Below, piece after piece: positions 47,389-52,639 of a stretch of 64,000 nucleotides of DNA. A model generated the notes under the pieces. The model ran no database searches, had not been told where the DNA came from, and worked only from the letters and a program-made list of their open reading frames with translations. The stretch covers positions 186,001 to 250,000 of the forward strand of contig JAJTEH010000006.1 in NCBI GenBank assembly GCA_021298355.1, in the 5' to 3' direction. The position numbers were made by a program, and so were the translations under genes. The stretch comes from Flammeovirgaceae bacterium (lineage in GTDB: Bacteria; Bacteroidota; Bacteroidia; Cytophagales; Cyclobacteriaceae). Each line of letters opens with the position of its first letter. Within the stretch, counting starts at the first letter, position 1.

Positions 47389-47919
47389 TTCTAAATAGTT
47401 ATCAAAAAATCTAATCTGCTAGTCCGCATGCTTACCACTAAACTTATTCATCACGCTGAAAATAAATCAACAACTTTGTTTAATAATTTTCTTGATAAAA
47501 ACATAAATAGGAAATTAGTTTTCCGAATTGAATAAATCAGCATGCTCGCGAAACGCATTAATTCTATCTTTGGTCTGGCCGGGTATGTGCGGATCGAATT
47601 CAGCGTTGAGCGAGCATGCGGGGCCCAGCGGCCCTGGAGCGACAATCGTAAGAATTTTAATTAATAAATTAATCGAATGAATAAGGAAATTCTAGTTTAG
47701 GTATCTTTCCGAACTAACAGAAAATCTAAAAATGAGAATCAAACCTAAATAAATAACAGGCATTAAAACTTACCCCAAAAAATAGAGACAAAGATTAACC
47801 AATTGAGATTTTGAATGAAAAATTTTCTAATTGCTTGTCAAAAGCATTTTTATTCATCCTTCCTCCTCTATGAAAATTTAGTTTTTTAGGCCATCTTCGC
47901 AGCCATAAAATCACACAGC
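47389..47919. other. Gene-poor region with a GC-rich island
   Basis: Between the peroxiredoxin terminator and the transketolase gene there are ~530 bases without a gene I can defend. Most is very AT-rich, but 47540-47645 is about 60% GC and carries a long inverted repeat. A minus-strand frame (47691-47515) has no stop across the island but no ATG. The last 100 bases should carry the transketolase promoter. Confidence 0.55.
47540..47619. repeat. Long inverted repeat in GC-rich island
   Basis: GCATGCTCGCGAAACGC (47540-47556) and GCGTTGAGCGAGCATGC (47603-47619) are reverse complements except at two positions. The match continues inward at lower identity (AATTC...GAATT). The ends lie ~80 bases apart. 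The next 22 bases are also GC-rich (GGGGCCCAGCGGCCC). It could fold as a single hairpin, be a MITE-like remnant, or be a degenerate mobile-element end. Confidence 0.6.
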
Positions 47920-48768
47920 ATGAGCCAGGCCGACTTACCTCAATTAAAAAAATTATCAACCCAAATCAGAAGAGACATTGTGCGCATGGTACATGCCTGT
48001 CAATCAGGGCATCCGGGCGGTTCATTAGGTTGTGTAGAGTATTTCGTGGCGTTGTATTTTCATTTCATGAAACATAATCCATCTTTTGCTATGGATGCAA
48101 AAGGTGAAGACTTATTCTTCTTATCCAATGGGCATATTTCTCCGGTTTGGTATGCTACCTTATCGCGTGCCGGTTATTTCCCGGTAAAAGAATTATCTAC
48201 TTTTCGTTTTTTAAATACACGCTTGCAAGGGCATCCGGCTACGCACGAACATTTACCTGGTATTCGCGTGGCGTCAGGTTCGTTAGGGCAAGGTTTGAGT
48301 GTTGCCATAGGCGCAGCACAAACAAAAAAATTAAATGCTGATGATCGTTTAGTATATGTGTTGATGGGCGATGGCGAACAACAAGAAGGACAAATATGGG
48401 AAGCAGCTATGTATGCCGCCCACCACAAAGTGGATAATTTGATTGCCACTATCGACTACAACGGACAACAAATTGATGGTTCGGTAAAAGAGGTGATGAA
48501 TCTATTCGATTTAAAAGCCAAGTGGGAAGCTTTCGGTTGGGTTGTAAACGAATTTGATGGCAATAAAATAGAAGCCGTAATAGCTGGAATAGAAAAAGCA
48601 CAAAGCCTGGCCAAGCAAGGCAAACCTGTTTTAAATTTAATGAAAACAGAAATGGGTTTTGGTGTTGATTACATGATGGGTTCACACAAATGGCATGGTG
48701 TTGCCCCTAACGATGAAGAATTGAAAAAAGCATTAGCGCAGTTAGAAGAGACTTTGGGGGATTACTAA
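47920..48768 (+). CDS. Transketolase, N-terminal (TPP pyrophosphate-binding) subunit
   Basis: 282-residue protein equal to the first half of transketolase, a cytoplasmic pentose-phosphate-pathway enzyme. The TPP-binding half is complete: HACQSGHPGGSLG, LSNGHISPVWYA, GHPATHEHLPGIRVASGSLGQGLS and the GDGEQQEGQIWEAAMYAA...N motif (VLMGDGEQQEG, ATIDYNGQQIDG). It ends with HKWHGVAPNDEE. Split transketolases are normal in Bacteroidota and need a ~310-residue C-terminal subunit. That partner is absent from this window and a terminator follows immediately, so it must be encoded elsewhere. It is not a truncation: the length equals the family's N-terminal subunit. Confidence 0.92.
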   Translation: MSQADLPQLKKLSTQIRRDIVRMVHACQSGHPGGSLGCVEYFVALYFHFMKHNPSFAMDAKGEDLFFLSNGHISPVWYATLSRAGYFPVKELSTFRFLNTRLQGHPATHEHLPGIRVASGSLGQGLSVAIGAAQTKKLNADDRLVYVLMGDGEQQEGQIWEAAMYAAHHKVDNLIATIDYNGQQIDGSVKEVMNLFDLKAKWEAFGWVVNEFDGNKIEAVIAGIEKAQSLAKQGKPVLNLMKTEMGFGVDYMMGSHKWHGVAPNDEELKKALAQLEETLGDY

Positions 48769-48788
48769 TGACTTTATTTTTAACAAAC

Positions 48789-48818
48789 AAAAGCCACTCA
48801 ATGAGTGGCTTTCTGTTT
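48789..48818 (+). terminator. Intrinsic terminator after the transketolase subunit
   Basis: AAAGCCACTC (48790-48799), loop AAT, GAGTGGCTTT (48803-48812), then a T-rich stretch. It is 21 bases after the stop and close to the end of the convergent unknown gene. Confidence 0.87.
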
Positions 48819-48855
48819 TAAAATTGATCATTGCCGACTGAATTATGACCCCTCA

Positions 48856-49614
48856 TTAGGTATAAACAAAACACATCACTGCCCTCTTTTTATCCTCACT
48901 TTGGAATAAATACAAATTATCTGCACCATATTTTTGAAATTTATTTCCGGATAAATAACCAATGTATTCAAATTTTTTGCGCTTACTGTCTTTTGGTATT
49001 TCAGGTAAATTAACATCTTCAAATGATTCAACTGATTTCATTCTTATTCCTTCTTCTAATAATTTTTTGATGGATAGCGATTGATGTTTTATATCTTCAA
49101 TAAAACCAAAGTATTCAGGATATTCCTTTTTGCTGTTCGGATATTCAGCATGAGATTTTTCAAGCTTCTCAATTGAGATATTGTCTTTGTTCAAGTTCAA
49201 ATTATAGATTGCGCCATGCTTTTTATAATATTCTTTACCAACATCAAAACTAATTTGATTTTCTTCGTACGCTTCTTCAATTTCTTCTACCCATTCATTA
49301 TAGTTTTCATTATCACTGTTGATGATAAAATAATCCCACGAAGTGTCGAATTTATACTTACCATCAATAATATCGAATCCAATCATATCTTCTTTCGTAT
49401 AGCGTGTGTGCCAATCCGATGTGTTTTCTCCCACACAACCATCGTAAATTTCTTTTACTGAAATAAAATGAATCCATTCATCGCGCTCGGGAAATAGAAA
49501 TTTTAAGTTGACTGAGCAGATTGGAAGGAAATGTTTTTTGTGATTATCAATGTCATCATAAAAAACTTCTTCATAGGCAGGAAAGGGTTTAAAAAAAGCG
49601 GATTGGTTTTTCAT
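48856..49614 (-). CDS. Unknown acidic protein (252 aa)
   Basis: Cytoplasmic-looking, rich in Asp, Glu, Asn, Tyr and Lys, with no signal peptide or membrane segment. Compact motifs such as SWDYFIINSDNENYNEWVEEIEEAYEEN and the C-terminal YIGYLSGNKFQKYGADNLYLFQ look like a globular domain with several aromatic residues. The composition resembles small immunity or cargo-recognition proteins of polymorphic-toxin systems, but I recognise no family and saw no toxin partner. It is the most distal gene of a run of minus-strand genes; the AT content is higher than in flanking housekeeping genes. Confidence 0.7.
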   Translation of the reverse strand: MKNQSAFFKPFPAYEEVFYDDIDNHKKHFLPICSVNLKFLFPERDEWIHFISVKEIYDGCVGENTSDWHTRYTKEDMIGFDIIDGKYKFDTSWDYFIINSDNENYNEWVEEIEEAYEENQISFDVGKEYYKKHGAIYNLNLNKDNISIEKLEKSHAEYPNSKKEYPEYFGFIEDIKHQSLSIKKLLEEGIRMKSVESFEDVNLPEIPKDSKRKKFEYIGYLSGNKFQKYGADNLYLFQSEDKKRAVMCFVYT

Positions 49615-49670
49615 TTAATTTTTTAGTTAATACTTATTAAATACTTGAAGGTTAAAGCTGAGACAAACAA

Positions 49671-49739
49671 ACATTTAATCTGACTATTTTCTCTTTATTT
49701 AATCAACTCTTAATATTGATTTAACATTTTATCTGACTA
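49671..49739. repeat. Short direct repeat upstream of the 252-aa gene
   Basis: ACATTTAATCTGACTA (49671-49686) and ACATTTTATCTGACTA (49724-49739) differ at one position and are 53 bases apart start to start, within an AT-rich intergenic region. They may be regulatory sites or footprints of insertion. Confidence 0.45.
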
Positions 49740-49857
49740 AAAATCTGTTAATCATTTTTCATGTTTAAAATTATGATCAAGAGAACATCTTATCATAACC
49801 ATAAAACACCAACTTATATCAAATTAAAATCAATTAGTTAGAATTACGGTGCAATGA

Positions 49858-50430
49858 TTACTTCCCATCATCTTCACATAGAAATTTATAGAGTTGGATT
49901 TTTTTGCGTCCATCGCTGTCAACCATAAATAATTCATTTATTAGTTTATCGTTAGCGAAATTCCTTTCTATAACCCAGAAGGAAATTCTGTTTGTTGCAT
50001 CGTGAACGATAACCTTAATTTTTATTGAGGTGGATTCATCTGCGTTGTTTATTCCGTAAATCTCATATCCATCACCTGACTTGCCTGTTTTGGTTACTCG
50101 AAATATTTCTGCCGCTTGACCCCAGTTGATAGAAAGTTTAGATTTATTTTCTACCCATTCAATTTCCTCTGTAACAGCATCACAATACACAGGAATTATT
50201 ACCTCACCTGACAATAAATAATCTACTCTGATAAATTTTCCTGATAAATTTATTTCATAATTTTTTATAATGTAGGAAGTTGTATCTTCACTGGAAGTAA
50301 GGATATTCTCCGTACTTGAATCAATTGATTGCCCTTTCTCTTTGCCGGAATGAGTACACTGCTGAAAGAAAAGAAAAGTTAAAAGCGATAGAAGTATATA
50401 AGAAATCAGGAGTAATCTCTTATTAATCAT
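49858..50430 (-). CDS. Unknown lipoprotein (190 aa)
   Basis: Begins with a strong hydrophobic signal ending Leu-Phe-Phe-Gln-Gln-Cys, a non-canonical but plausible lipobox. A Ser/Thr-rich linker follows, then a beta-rich domain (FIRVDYLLSGEVIIPVYCD, KLSINWGQAAEIFRVTKTG, SIKIKVIVHDATNRISFWVIER). Only its context can be described: second in a run of small minus-strand genes and separated on both sides by 230-250 bases. Role unknown. Confidence 0.68.
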   Translation of the reverse strand: MINKRLLLISYILLSLLTFLFFQQCTHSGKEKGQSIDSSTENILTSSEDTTSYIIKNYEINLSGKFIRVDYLLSGEVIIPVYCDAVTEEIEWVENKSKLSINWGQAAEIFRVTKTGKSGDGYEIYGINNADESTSIKIKVIVHDATNRISFWVIERNFANDKLINELFMVDSDGRKKIQLYKFLCEDDGK

Positions 50431-50472
50431 TTTTAAAATTAATAATCTAAAATTGAATTTACTATTGATGAT

Positions 50473-50497
50473 AAAAAACCTAACAAAATTTGTTGGG
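50473..50497 (-). terminator. Weak terminator-like hairpin
   Basis: On the minus strand CCCAACA (50497-50491) pairs with TGTTAGG (50485-50479) around a five-base loop, one mismatch, followed by six T. It lies between the 154-aa and 190-aa genes, just beyond repeat copy A. Confidence 0.45.
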
Positions 50498-50518
50498 CTT
50501 CTACTACCATCTGGTGCG

Positions 50519-50641
50519 GAAGTTACTTCTGTGACTTGAATGTTGAACTCTTTATTTCGATTTTCTCATATAAACACATTCAGTTATTAGAGCGGATGAA
50601 CTGCACATATTCCAACACGCAACATCTGCGCTAGTTTTGAG
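50519..50641. repeat. Dispersed repeat, copy A
   Basis: ~123 bases similar to 51773-51882, with shared blocks GAATGTTGAACTC, CATTCAGT and GCGCTAG/TCGCTAG. The first 87 bases align almost without gaps; a 12-base insertion near 50606 separates the last block. By eye identity is about 75%. Intergenic, between the 154-aa and 190-aa genes. Confidence 0.7.
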
Positions 50642-50660
50642 AAAAAATCAATCATTTACA

Positions 50661-51125
50661 CTATTTAACACTTCGCTTTACAAAAAACAAAATCAAAAAC
50701 AAGATAAATGGTGTAGGTGCTAAGTATAGATAATGTATTGGGAACCGATAGGGTTTGAAATTTTCAACTATTGAACAATCCTTTAAATATTTTATATTCA
50801 CTGAATCACCAATTTCAATTTTTGATAGATCTATCTCTTCAGAAATTATAAAAGCAAAGTTGTTAATAGCTATTTCGTTATTGTTAAAATATTCATAACT
50901 AAAAATTCCTCTTTTCGGATAATCTCTTTCAGAATTAAAAAGTTCAATATCCACTATCTTCCCTTGAGATTTAAAACCAATTTTATTGATTTTTTCATAC
51001 TCACTTGTTGATAGTTGGCCAACTAATGTTTTCTTTGAAGAAATAAAAACTGTTATTTCAAATAGTATAATTATAGATATTATACAAATAGTAAAAAATC
51101 TTAATGGCTTGTTTAAACTATACAT
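50661..51125 (-). CDS. Unknown two-TM membrane protein (154 aa)
   Basis: A hydrophobic helix near the N-terminus (FTICIISIIILFEITVFI), ~90 polar residues and a second helix at the C-terminus (YLYLAPTPFILFLILFFV) followed by KRSVK. The middle holds beta-type sequence (SQGKIVDIELFNSERDYPKRG, DLSKIEIGDSVNIKYLKDC). The layout recalls DUF3592-like small membrane proteins, where a beta domain sits between two helices, but the match is not firm. It follows the RDD gene by 92 bases and the pair lies between the two copies of the dispersed repeat. Confidence 0.7.
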   Translation of the reverse strand: MYSLNKPLRFFTICIISIIILFEITVFISSKKTLVGQLSTSEYEKINKIGFKSQGKIVDIELFNSERDYPKRGIFSYEYFNNNEIAINNFAFIISEEIDLSKIEIGDSVNIKYLKDCSIVENFKPYRFPIHYLYLAPTPFILFLILFFVKRSVK

Positions 51126-51217
51126 TAATCGCTTACAGCATTTTAACTTATTAATACTTTAGAAGTTTAAAGAATATCATCAAGTTGAAAAAATTATAAT
51201 AAAATGTATTTCTTATT

Positions 51218-51724
51218 TTAAAATCCAAGTTGAATCAATAATTTGCAAGATAGATAAGACAACATCAATGCAAATGTAAAGGCAATTAGGACTTTGAAAT
51301 AACCCCAACTTTTTAATTCTATTCCTACAATATCACTATCAACTTTAGTTGCTGTGATATAATCTCCCAATCTCCTTTTTGGCGACCACGATAAAATTAA
51401 AAGTTCAATTGGCCACAAAAAAAAGGAAACATTTCTTAAAACACATTGAAGAGGGTTCGCTACCTTCCCTGTTTTAGTTGAAATAATTCTCAAACCAATA
51501 AAATATTTACCTATACTTTGACCAAAAAGTAGGTCTTTACCAATAAGAGCTAATAACTGAAAGGTAAAGAGTATAGCCTTACTATTTTCTGAATACGTAC
51601 TAATAAAAAATATTTCATCAATTATACTAAGTACTATTGTTACTATAAAAAGAATGATGAAATCAATCAAAATAGATTGAAATCTATTTGGTAATGAATC
51701 AATTGTTTCTTTAATCAAAGACAT
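51218..51724 (-). CDS. RDD family membrane protein
   Basis: 168-residue protein with three hydrophobic segments (about 17-38, 50-68, 143-165). RDD-family marks are the N-terminal NRFQSILIDFIILF (Asp in the first helix), FGQSIGKYFIGLRIIST and the end of the domain RRLGDYITATKV. RDD proteins are small, often accessory, membrane proteins; some act as Na+/H+ antiporters, most are unknown. The first Arg of the classic motif appears as Gln here or is displaced. It is the upstream partner of the 154-aa gene. Confidence 0.82.
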   Translation of the reverse strand: MSLIKETIDSLPNRFQSILIDFIILFIVTIVLSIIDEIFFISTYSENSKAILFTFQLLALIGKDLLFGQSIGKYFIGLRIISTKTGKVANPLQCVLRNVSFFLWPIELLILSWSPKRRLGDYITATKVDSDIVGIELKSWGYFKVLIAFTFALMLSYLSCKLLIQLGF

Positions 51725-52030
51725 ATATCAAAACTAATTTGGAAAGAAAATTAACCTCCCCCATATTGCACTGAAGTTGCCTCCCTGCCTCGAATGTTGA
51801 ACTCCTTGTTTCGCTTTTAATATAAAAACTCATTCAGTAATTAGCACGGATAAACTACACACAACATCATCGCTAGTGGAGATTATTAGAAACGTTTTGT
51901 AAGATGTTGTTTCTTTTTTTAAGTAAATGTTAAATCGGATTTTATTTTCGATACTAAACTATGCGAAAAACCAACAACGAGTATCGAACAACCATTTCTT
52001 TCCCAACAACGAATTTCAAACAACGATTTC
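51725..52030. other. Intergenic region containing repeat copy B
   Basis: 306 bases between the RDD gene and the acidic 202-aa gene. It contains copy B of the dispersed repeat (51773-51882). The rest (51883-52030) is AT-rich with no ORF and includes two near-identical short stretches (ACAACGA...ATTTC, at about 51975 and 52003). Confidence 0.55.
51773..51882. repeat. Dispersed repeat, copy B
   Basis: Partner of 50519-50641 in the same orientation (see copy A). Together the copies bracket the RDD and 154-aa genes, a layout that would fit a gene cassette or a segmental duplication of an intergenic element. Confidence 0.7.
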
Positions 52031-52639
52031 TTACTCCCCAACTGATTCCTTCATCTGAAATGTATATAGAGTTTCATCGAGTTGTAACGTGCCTTTGTTG
52101 TATTCATCAATAAATTTTTCGATTACCGCATCGCTTATTTCTTCTACGTGTAATCCGATATCCAAAGCAATTCCGAAATCTACATGAATGTCTTTATCGC
52201 TGTGTTCTTTTACTTTTACAGCGCCTTCCTCTTCTAACTCCATAATTACTTCGGCCATAAACAAACCTATCTCCTCCTCTAAATCATCGAGTGGTTCTAA
52301 ATTGCCGTTTTCATCTTCTTCGTAATTTATTTTTTTATACTCCGGAAATTGTTTTGCTGCACGGTGTTCTGCTATCTCAAACATTTCGCTTTCGTGTTGC
52401 ATGCGTAACGTGTAAAGCACAGTATCGTAAATCACTTCTTTTCCTTCGTGTTTCCCGATAAAGAAGAAATGTGCATATTCTTCACTTCGCTCATCATCAT
52501 CGTCTAACAAAAATGGTTTACCAATCGCTTCCATCTCTGCGCGATATTGGTTGATTTCTTCTTTTAAATATCCTCTGTTCAAAACGGTTGTGTTTAGGTT
52601 TGAGTAGTTGAATATAAGCAATGCCCATTGGCATACCAA
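52031..52639 (-). CDS. Unknown acidic protein (202 aa)
   Basis: Highly acidic soluble protein (runs such as LLDDDDERSEE and DDLEEEIGLFMAEVIMELEEEG), with helical heptads and no membrane segment. The first ~20 residues of the longest frame (MVCQWALLIFNYSNLNTTV) look unlike the rest, so the true start may be the TTG 57 bases in (LNRGYLKEEINQYRAEMEAIG) or a later Met. It begins 18 bases after the gamma-carbonic-anhydrase stop and may be its operon partner. I do not recognise the family; the compositional quality suggests a real, conserved gene. Confidence 0.75.
   Translation of the reverse strand: MVCQWALLIFNYSNLNTTVLNRGYLKEEINQYRAEMEAIGKPFLLDDDDERSEEYAHFFFIGKHEGKEVIYDTVLYTLRMQHESEMFEIAEHRAAKQFPEYKKINYEEDENGNLEPLDDLEEEIGLFMAEVIMELEEEGAVKVKEHSDKDIHVDFGIALDIGLHVEEISDAVIEKFIDEYNKGTLQLDETLYTFQMKESVGE

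Follow-up and report, generated by a model that had tools for sequence, protein, structure and literature searches.

Introduction

RAYT/TnpA-REP transposases of subclass 2.6 (RAYT group 5) occur mostly in Bacteroidetes and, in the part of Quentin et al. (2018, PMC6006769) that treats them, are flanked by atypical secondary structures of which copies lie elsewhere in the genome. The role of these atypical repeats of Bacteroidota RAYTs is little described in the portion of the literature covered here. Y1 transposases are common in the order studied, PF01797 being present in 46 of 59 genomes (source genome included, Y1 classes pooled).

Integron gene cassettes offer another point of comparison: a gene is followed by a repeat, mostly in one orientation, and the contents vary between conserved borders. 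Among the HUH enzymes other than RAYTs, those of IS91/ISCR and the Helitrons carry out one-ended transposition.

We analysed a window of 64,000 nucleotides (C66:186001-250000) from a 3.6-Mb genome, G000, and compared it with the congeners G001 to G004. Two copies of a repeat, A and B, flank two genes in this window. Our explanation as a whole, to which we give a probability of roughly 0.6, is that the repeat is derived from a RAYT and that the block originated by insertion of a unit made of the repeat and adjoining genes.

Results and Discussion

Repeat Copies and Genes at the Window Locus

The initial annotation had described two repeats in the same orientation on either side of exactly two genes, and this was confirmed. 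Copies A and B are direct repeats, 76% identical over 101 nt without a gap (50507-50607 and 51761-51861, spacing 1254), and copy B as a BLASTN query recovers copy A at E = 6.5e-15 in the 3.6-Mb genome, so their likeness is not due to chance. Their true limits are slightly wider than first annotated. Copy A, whose ends match those of the RAYT units described below and which is almost certainly a RAYT-derived non-autonomous element of ~135 nt, occupies about 50505-50641 of the plus strand (135 bits with model R1, copy A being among its source copies), with a left hairpin at about 50511-50536, a linker, and a right hairpin at about 50588-50634. Copy B, the same element, lies at about 51760-51882 on the same strand (108 bits, copy B likewise being among the source copies of R1); 12 nt are missing from its right-hand loop and its palindromes have decayed.

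The genes between the copies, both on the minus strand, encode a 154-aa protein (50661-51125) and a 168-aa RDD-family membrane protein (51218-51724; PF06271, 25.7 bits, cut-off 24.1). The 3' end of the former faces the right end of copy A, and its product, with hydrophobic ends as judged by eye, has no Pfam or NCBIfam match at E <= 0.01. The RDD protein is matched at E <= 1e-5 in 1 of the 58 relatives outside G000, at 34% identity. To the left of copy A are two further minus-strand genes without a Pfam match, one of 190 aa (49858-50430) and one of 252 aa (48856-49614) that adjoins a plus-strand gene at 47920-48768. The product of the latter, recognised from its sequence, we take to be the N-terminal part of transketolase; this gene is the conserved left border of the region, and a minus-strand gene of 202 aa (52031-52639) is the conserved right border.

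Immediately right of copy B, 18 nt of the plus strand (51878-51895, GGAGATTATTAGAAACGT) are identical to the 3' end of the G002 transketolase gene and the bases that follow it, and are a duplicated slice of the border gene, with the transketolase end as in G002. Just outside copy A, a palindrome read from the sequence (CCTAACAAAATTTGTTGGG, 50479-50497, minus strand) is terminator-like, with a T run on the minus strand; the terminator scan did not list it. The two words first likened to integron attC boxes find their place here: GTTGAAC belongs to the linker of the element, and ACCTAAC is outside copy A, in the palindrome just mentioned, so neither reads as an attC box. Between copy B and the 202-aa gene, at 51971-52034, there is a tandem pair of a 32-nt unit, 84% identical.

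Two further repeats were seen near the locus. One is intergenic, ~110 nt long (47537-47646), with a 17-nt inverted pair and BLASTN matches in all four congeners, most of them in G001; it is perhaps a second REP-like family. The other is a sequence of ~35 nt with GCTAGTCCGC, found beside the locus (47405-47442) and again close to where contigs of G002 end (C22:112-146 and the end of C18); it is likely the end of an insertion sequence.

A Variable Site among Congeners

In G001, G003, and G004 the transketolase and 202-aa genes stand side by side, their aligned parts being separated by 37, 60, and about 222 bp, respectively; all three intervals were read, and a profile scan found no element at the G004 locus. 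Four genes and two copies of the element lie between the same borders in G000. The accessory character first attributed to this part of the window was checked for 48769-52030, a segment that is absent from that site in three congeners and includes the 190-aa and 252-aa genes. At the same site in G002, three copies, the first of them partial, alternate with a 147-aa gene and then a different 154-aa gene, and the contig ends after the last copy; the right flank of this last copy is common to copy B, and the contents to its left differ. It had been asked whether relatives lack the two genes and carry one repeat. The genes are indeed absent from G001, G003, and G004, the G004 locus being without the element, and G002 has other genes. 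For this comparison, and for that of the C40 locus below, at most the best 40 candidates were scored per genome.

Anatomy of the Element and Extent of the Family

The ~135-nt element is built of two hairpins, inverted with respect to each other, and a linker. Its best-preserved copies run CCCCATCTGGCGCGGAAGTTACTTCCGTGCCA, then a linker of ~50 nt, and then TTGGCACGGATGAACTG..CATCCGCGCCAGTGGGG. Complementarity in the consensus is complete between arm 1 and arm 4 and between arm 2 and arm 3, and nearly complete for arms 1/2 and 3/4. The motifs GTAG and GTGG are absent from the 5' foot of the hairpin; by eye, the consensus has CCCATC, GGTAAT, CCCAC, and CATTCG before its four feet, of which each strand has two. 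When copies were folded as DNA, two of the well-preserved ones scored far better than their shuffles (z of -4.49 and -3.33), and copies A and B of the window scored no better than theirs (z of -0.96 and +0.95). The two inverted palindromes are present as such, 74-76% of cells being able to pair as compared with 30-48% when slid. The pairing of arms 1/4 and 2/3 in 26 copies (76.0% of cells, 76.3% in column shuffles) and that of arms 1/2 and 3/4 (74.4% and 74.3%) are both free of covariation, so the two rival folds are not separable by pairing counts. The palindromes decay after insertion, with no sign of selection for pairing, and the copies in the window are, to judge from their sequences, old and decayed.

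The initial annotation had named as a refuting outcome that only these two copies would exist, with no variation in position. Instead the element is found at no fewer than 34 places in G000 at E <= 1, on many contigs (best 150 of 1615 candidates scored; the 15 copies from which the model was built are among the 34 places), and its surroundings vary between congeners. At E <= 0.001 the family occurs in 3 of the 59 genomes, with 33 copies in G000, 9 in G002, and 2 in G004 (56 candidates per genome, stricter filters). It was not found among the best 56 candidates of G001, of G003, or of each of the 54 genomes outside the genus, which is absence at that depth because of the number of candidates scored and the stricter filters. 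One copy used as a BLASTN query had no match in plasmids, and one exact pattern of the element had none in viral contigs. Many copies are only about 75-80% identical to one another by BLASTN. They cluster, with 9 gaps of less than 2 kb among the 34 places where about 0.6 would be expected at random; contigs C16, C47, C61, and C34 end inside or at copies, so the arrays may be incomplete or misjoined. Most copies in G000 (24 of 34) overlap no called ORF of at least 60 aa, and the other 10 overlap simple ORF calls that are possibly spurious. The family is mobile and is dispersed beside fast-changing accessory genes.

One orientation relative to the neighbouring genes prevails among the copies. 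A right-hand gene was called for 41 of the 44 copies in three genomes, ending at the element in 34 cases and starting there in 7, and where both neighbours are on one strand they follow the prevailing direction 27 times and the other 5 times; these counts, made with simple ORF calls of at least 75 aa, the element masked, and related copies kept in, are not of independent events because the copies share ancestry within and between genomes.

A RAYT Origin of the Element

PF01797 matches above its cut-off at two places in G000, on contigs C70 and C2. Both matches are interrupted by an in-frame stop, and a partial repeat lies next to each. The two places are RAYT units of ~700 bp that share 90% identity across 695 bp. 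The C2 unit is bounded by ...GCGGAAGTTACTTCCGTGCCAC and GGCACGGATGAACTACACACATGCCTACACACAACATCCGCGCCAGT, that is, it starts with the left end of the repeat and finishes with its right end; the C70 unit aligns with it along its whole length and has a degraded left arm. These matches show the repeat to be the RAYT unit minus the transposase gene. Because its ends are those of ~700-bp broken-RAYT units in the same genome, the element is almost certainly, as far as its sequence can tell, a miniature, REPIN-like, non-autonomous derivative of a Bacteroidota RAYT in which a linker of ~50 nt has replaced the transposase gene.

Intact RAYTs of relatives agree with this reading. With NF047646 (cut-off 80) they score 90.8, 107.1, and 96.6, the last being that of G002, and the unbroken pieces of the C2 and C70 copies, both of which are broken, reach 38.5 and 27.2 bits, below that cut-off. 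The intact RAYT of G002 is flanked on the same four-arm plan, by CTGGCGC..GTGCC and GGCAC..GCGCCAG, with different inner letters. RAYT proteins of 182 and 183 aa were seen, as were the words WQ and Y(I/M)H(N/Q)NP; by these motif words, the length, and the phylum the RAYTs would fall in subclass 2.6. The kind is already known in outline as a RAYT-associated palindromic repeat (PMC6006769), since Quentin et al., in the part concerned, describe flanking structures of subclass 2.6 with genomic copies. No intact RAYT with the present ends was found in the G000 assembly, which is gapped, or among the fetched RAYT loci of congeners, and an nhmmer scan of 26 RAYT loci of relatives gave one weak partial match (E 0.0023), near one G004 RAYT covered by three overlapping loci. 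A RAYT fragment at C33:2-172 had been considered as the cognate and was dropped, since the palindrome in its flank is a different one, which a G004 RAYT also has.

That palindrome, GGTCGTAGCGTCTCGCTACGACC, is found at C33:181-213 and C33:1009-1041 of G000 and in the flanks of a RAYT on C7 of G004, and so flanks another RAYT; in one copy of the present element it replaces the left arm, giving a mosaic of two RAYT repeat families. Elsewhere in the order, RAYT units of ~700 bp with 90-97% identity, whose homology stops at inverted ends of ~80 nt, were seen in G055 at 4 of the 7 places fetched (L124, L128, L129, and L130). These seem to transpose whole, whereas REPtrons, according to the background given in the part of PMC6006769 at hand, do not appear to. 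In G017, contigs C1 and C2 hold full-length PF01797 matches, over 20 in number, whose scores are identical or almost so, as for a multicopy insertion sequence.

Units of Element and Neighbouring DNA

A few copies seem to have moved together with adjoining genes. At the C40 locus, 1667 bp comprising a 301-aa ORF, a 99-aa ORF, and the element are present in G000 and absent in G002, whose site is uninterrupted. The junction coincides with the left end of the element, and ATCC, in the orientation of the element, is common to the target and the far end of the unit; there is no element at that other end and none in the empty site. To the right of the junction only 63 bp are homologous before G000 and G002 part again. 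As this unit has a single copy, composite transposition from two full copies was set aside as the only route.

On C2, about 416 bp consisting of the element and about 281 bp of a core gene are present in G000 and absent in G002, which has one copy there. The captured slice (C2:91344-91625; L012:3345-3626) is from the interior of the core gene, presumably PD40/TolB-like, and lies between two nearly identical copies; its source gene is present in all five congeners, and the slice is 93% identical to the genome's own full copy. The difference could also have arisen in G002, by deletion between two copies that are almost identical. In a third case, the element, together with 1.5 kb or more of DNA on its right, is common to C34 of G000 and C29 of G002 (85.7%), and the match stops at the left end of the element.

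Other breaks in homology are less clear-cut. At C2c the right side changes exactly at the right end of the element and at C60b 64 bp past it; at C60a the left side changes 189 bp past the left end, and at C47 the left flank differs for 748/908 bp. These four breaks run against a one-sided rule and would also fit recombination. CC was found within 8 bases before CTGG in 18 of 22 readable left flanks (26 rows, of which 3 blank and 1 misanchored), a count that is no test of the target because the element itself may include those bases.

Origin of the Two-Gene Block

We propose that copy B would first have entered between the transketolase and 202-aa genes, and that a unit composed of copy A and the two genes at its right end would then have entered immediately to the left of copy B. 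Such units would be fixed at the left end of the element and variable at the opposite end, the accessory genes, which read towards the element, travelling as passengers. This order of events at the block has, in our estimate, somewhat less than an even chance of being correct. The more general step, one-ended carriage of genes by a RAYT, is put forward tentatively and with no more confidence: the part of the transposase is deduced from junction sequences, and the in-frame stops in both of the genome's own RAYT copies with these ends weaken it.

The alternative that survives best accepts the RAYT derivation of the element and ascribes gene turnover to ordinary homologous recombination or transfer with the copies as arms, for instance by exchange of toxin tips and immunity genes between a conserved core and a copy downstream. 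Homology does break at the edge of the element in several pairs of G000 and G002, on either side. Beside the copies at C2, identity is 99.8% over 2624 bp on one side and 92.6% over 3093 bp on the other (95.6% within the first 1500 bp), which looks like the end of an exchange tract, and at C2c the swapped segment of G002 carries an apparent toxin tip that we take to be of the Rhs type. However, copies that are in many cases only 75-80% alike would be poor arms for RecA, and the far end of the C40 unit and its empty site both lack the element. We judge recombination between copies unlikely rather than likely, at about the weight given to one-ended RAYT carriage or slightly below it. Still more improbable is a coincidental layout, in which two elements inserted independently beside genes that arrived by unrelated means. 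The number of dispersed copies and the tolerance of accessory sites to insertions would allow it, but the clustering of the copies, their prevailing orientation to genes, and the recurrence in G002 of this plan, filled with different genes, at the equivalent site all speak against it.

The initial annotation had suggested a cassette-like mobile unit with partial likeness to integrons. The mobile repeat family, the variable site, and some units of element and neighbour bear out the first part of that suggestion; the integron and attC identity is not supported. An array of divergent attC sites moved by an integron-type tyrosine recombinase would agree with the layout of gene then site, mostly in one orientation, with the variable contents, and with four arms able to pair as two stems. 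There is even a 388-aa recombinase that scores 202.1 with TIGR02249 and 217.4 with NF040815, but these values are below the respective cut-offs of 265 and 220, and it is the best TIGR02249 protein of G000, so that no integron integrase exceeds the cut-off in this genome. Followed through 29 genomes, the recombinase is present in all five congeners, two of them without the repeat, and no repeat was found on its own contig, C64 (best 150 of 1615 candidates). Moreover, the ends of the element are those of RAYT units, and at the C40 junction the unit keeps its GATGGGG end entire, which places the cut, at this one junction, outside the attC crossover (R', G/TTRRRY). An integron array is hardly credible on this evidence. 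The recombinase itself (C64:369-1532) has an extra N-terminal part and is just below the cut-off of NF040815 (XerA/integron integrase).

Least credible is a cis-acting RNA (a terminator or regulatory RNA in 3' regions), which the placement after gene ends and the prevailing orientation might have suggested and which is not supported by the pairing, no better than column shuffles and without covariation in 26 copies for either fold, by the folding of the window copies, or by Rfam (0 matches in the window at the gathering score); as far as Rfam tells, the repeat is thus not the known regulatory RNA or promoter family that had been named as a refuting outcome, and is instead of the RAYT-associated palindromic kind.

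Returning to unit insertion by a RAYT-derived element, its broadest form would make this element an integrase-free maker of gene cassettes: the left end would enter sites ending in -CC, the right end would often be read through, and the DNA past that end, be it complete accessory genes or part of a core gene, would be carried along, giving one-orientation arrays of gene and repeat at accessory and toxin-immunity loci of Bacteroidota. We regard this generalisation as doubtful. The recoverable empty sites make gene carriage by RAYT elements testable in this family. If it is true, modular accessory arrays would have a further route of origin in addition to integrons, and the captured core-gene slice on C2 would record how a passenger is acquired; if it is not, the copies remain markers of sites of accessory-gene exchange. 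In either case, arrays of gene and repeat in one orientation need not be integrons.

Comparison with Known Systems

The present element agrees with subclass 2.6, in the relevant part of PMC6006769, in phylum, in an HUH transposase of ~180 aa with the words WQ and Y(I/M)H(N/Q)NP, and in atypical flanking structures copied elsewhere. That part makes no mention of a common two-ended derivative of ~135 nt, mostly 3' of genes, in one orientation, and in some cases accompanied by genes, as seen here. No description of gene carriage by RAYT elements was found in the literature searched, which was available in part. With REPINs and BIMEs, as far as these are covered by the parts of PMC3116915 and PMC6006769 considered, the element has in common two inverted palindromes with a linker, dispersal, non-autonomy, and the link to a RAYT. 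In contrast to those REP doublets, it is about 135 nt long, has a long loop in one hairpin, lacks the GTAG/GTGG foot, is present in tens of copies, and has broken RAYTs of its own. TIRtrons and TIRYTs, in the sections of PMC3733652 consulted, similarly combine a RAYT-like gene, terminal inverted repeats, and family copies elsewhere, whereas here miniature derivatives lie beside accessory genes in Bacteroidota.

Among the other systems, integron cassettes are alike in layout and differ in that here no integrase passes the cut-off, the junction is outside the attC crossover, and the ends are those of RAYTs. IS91/ISCR elements share the HUH class, one fixed and one variable end, and the capture of neighbouring DNA, although here these ends would be those of a Y1-type element, as suggested by the sequences of a few junctions. 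The repeat is therefore ordinary in identity, being of the RAYT-repeat kind, and unusual in that several of its copies look like the fixed end of gene-carrying units.
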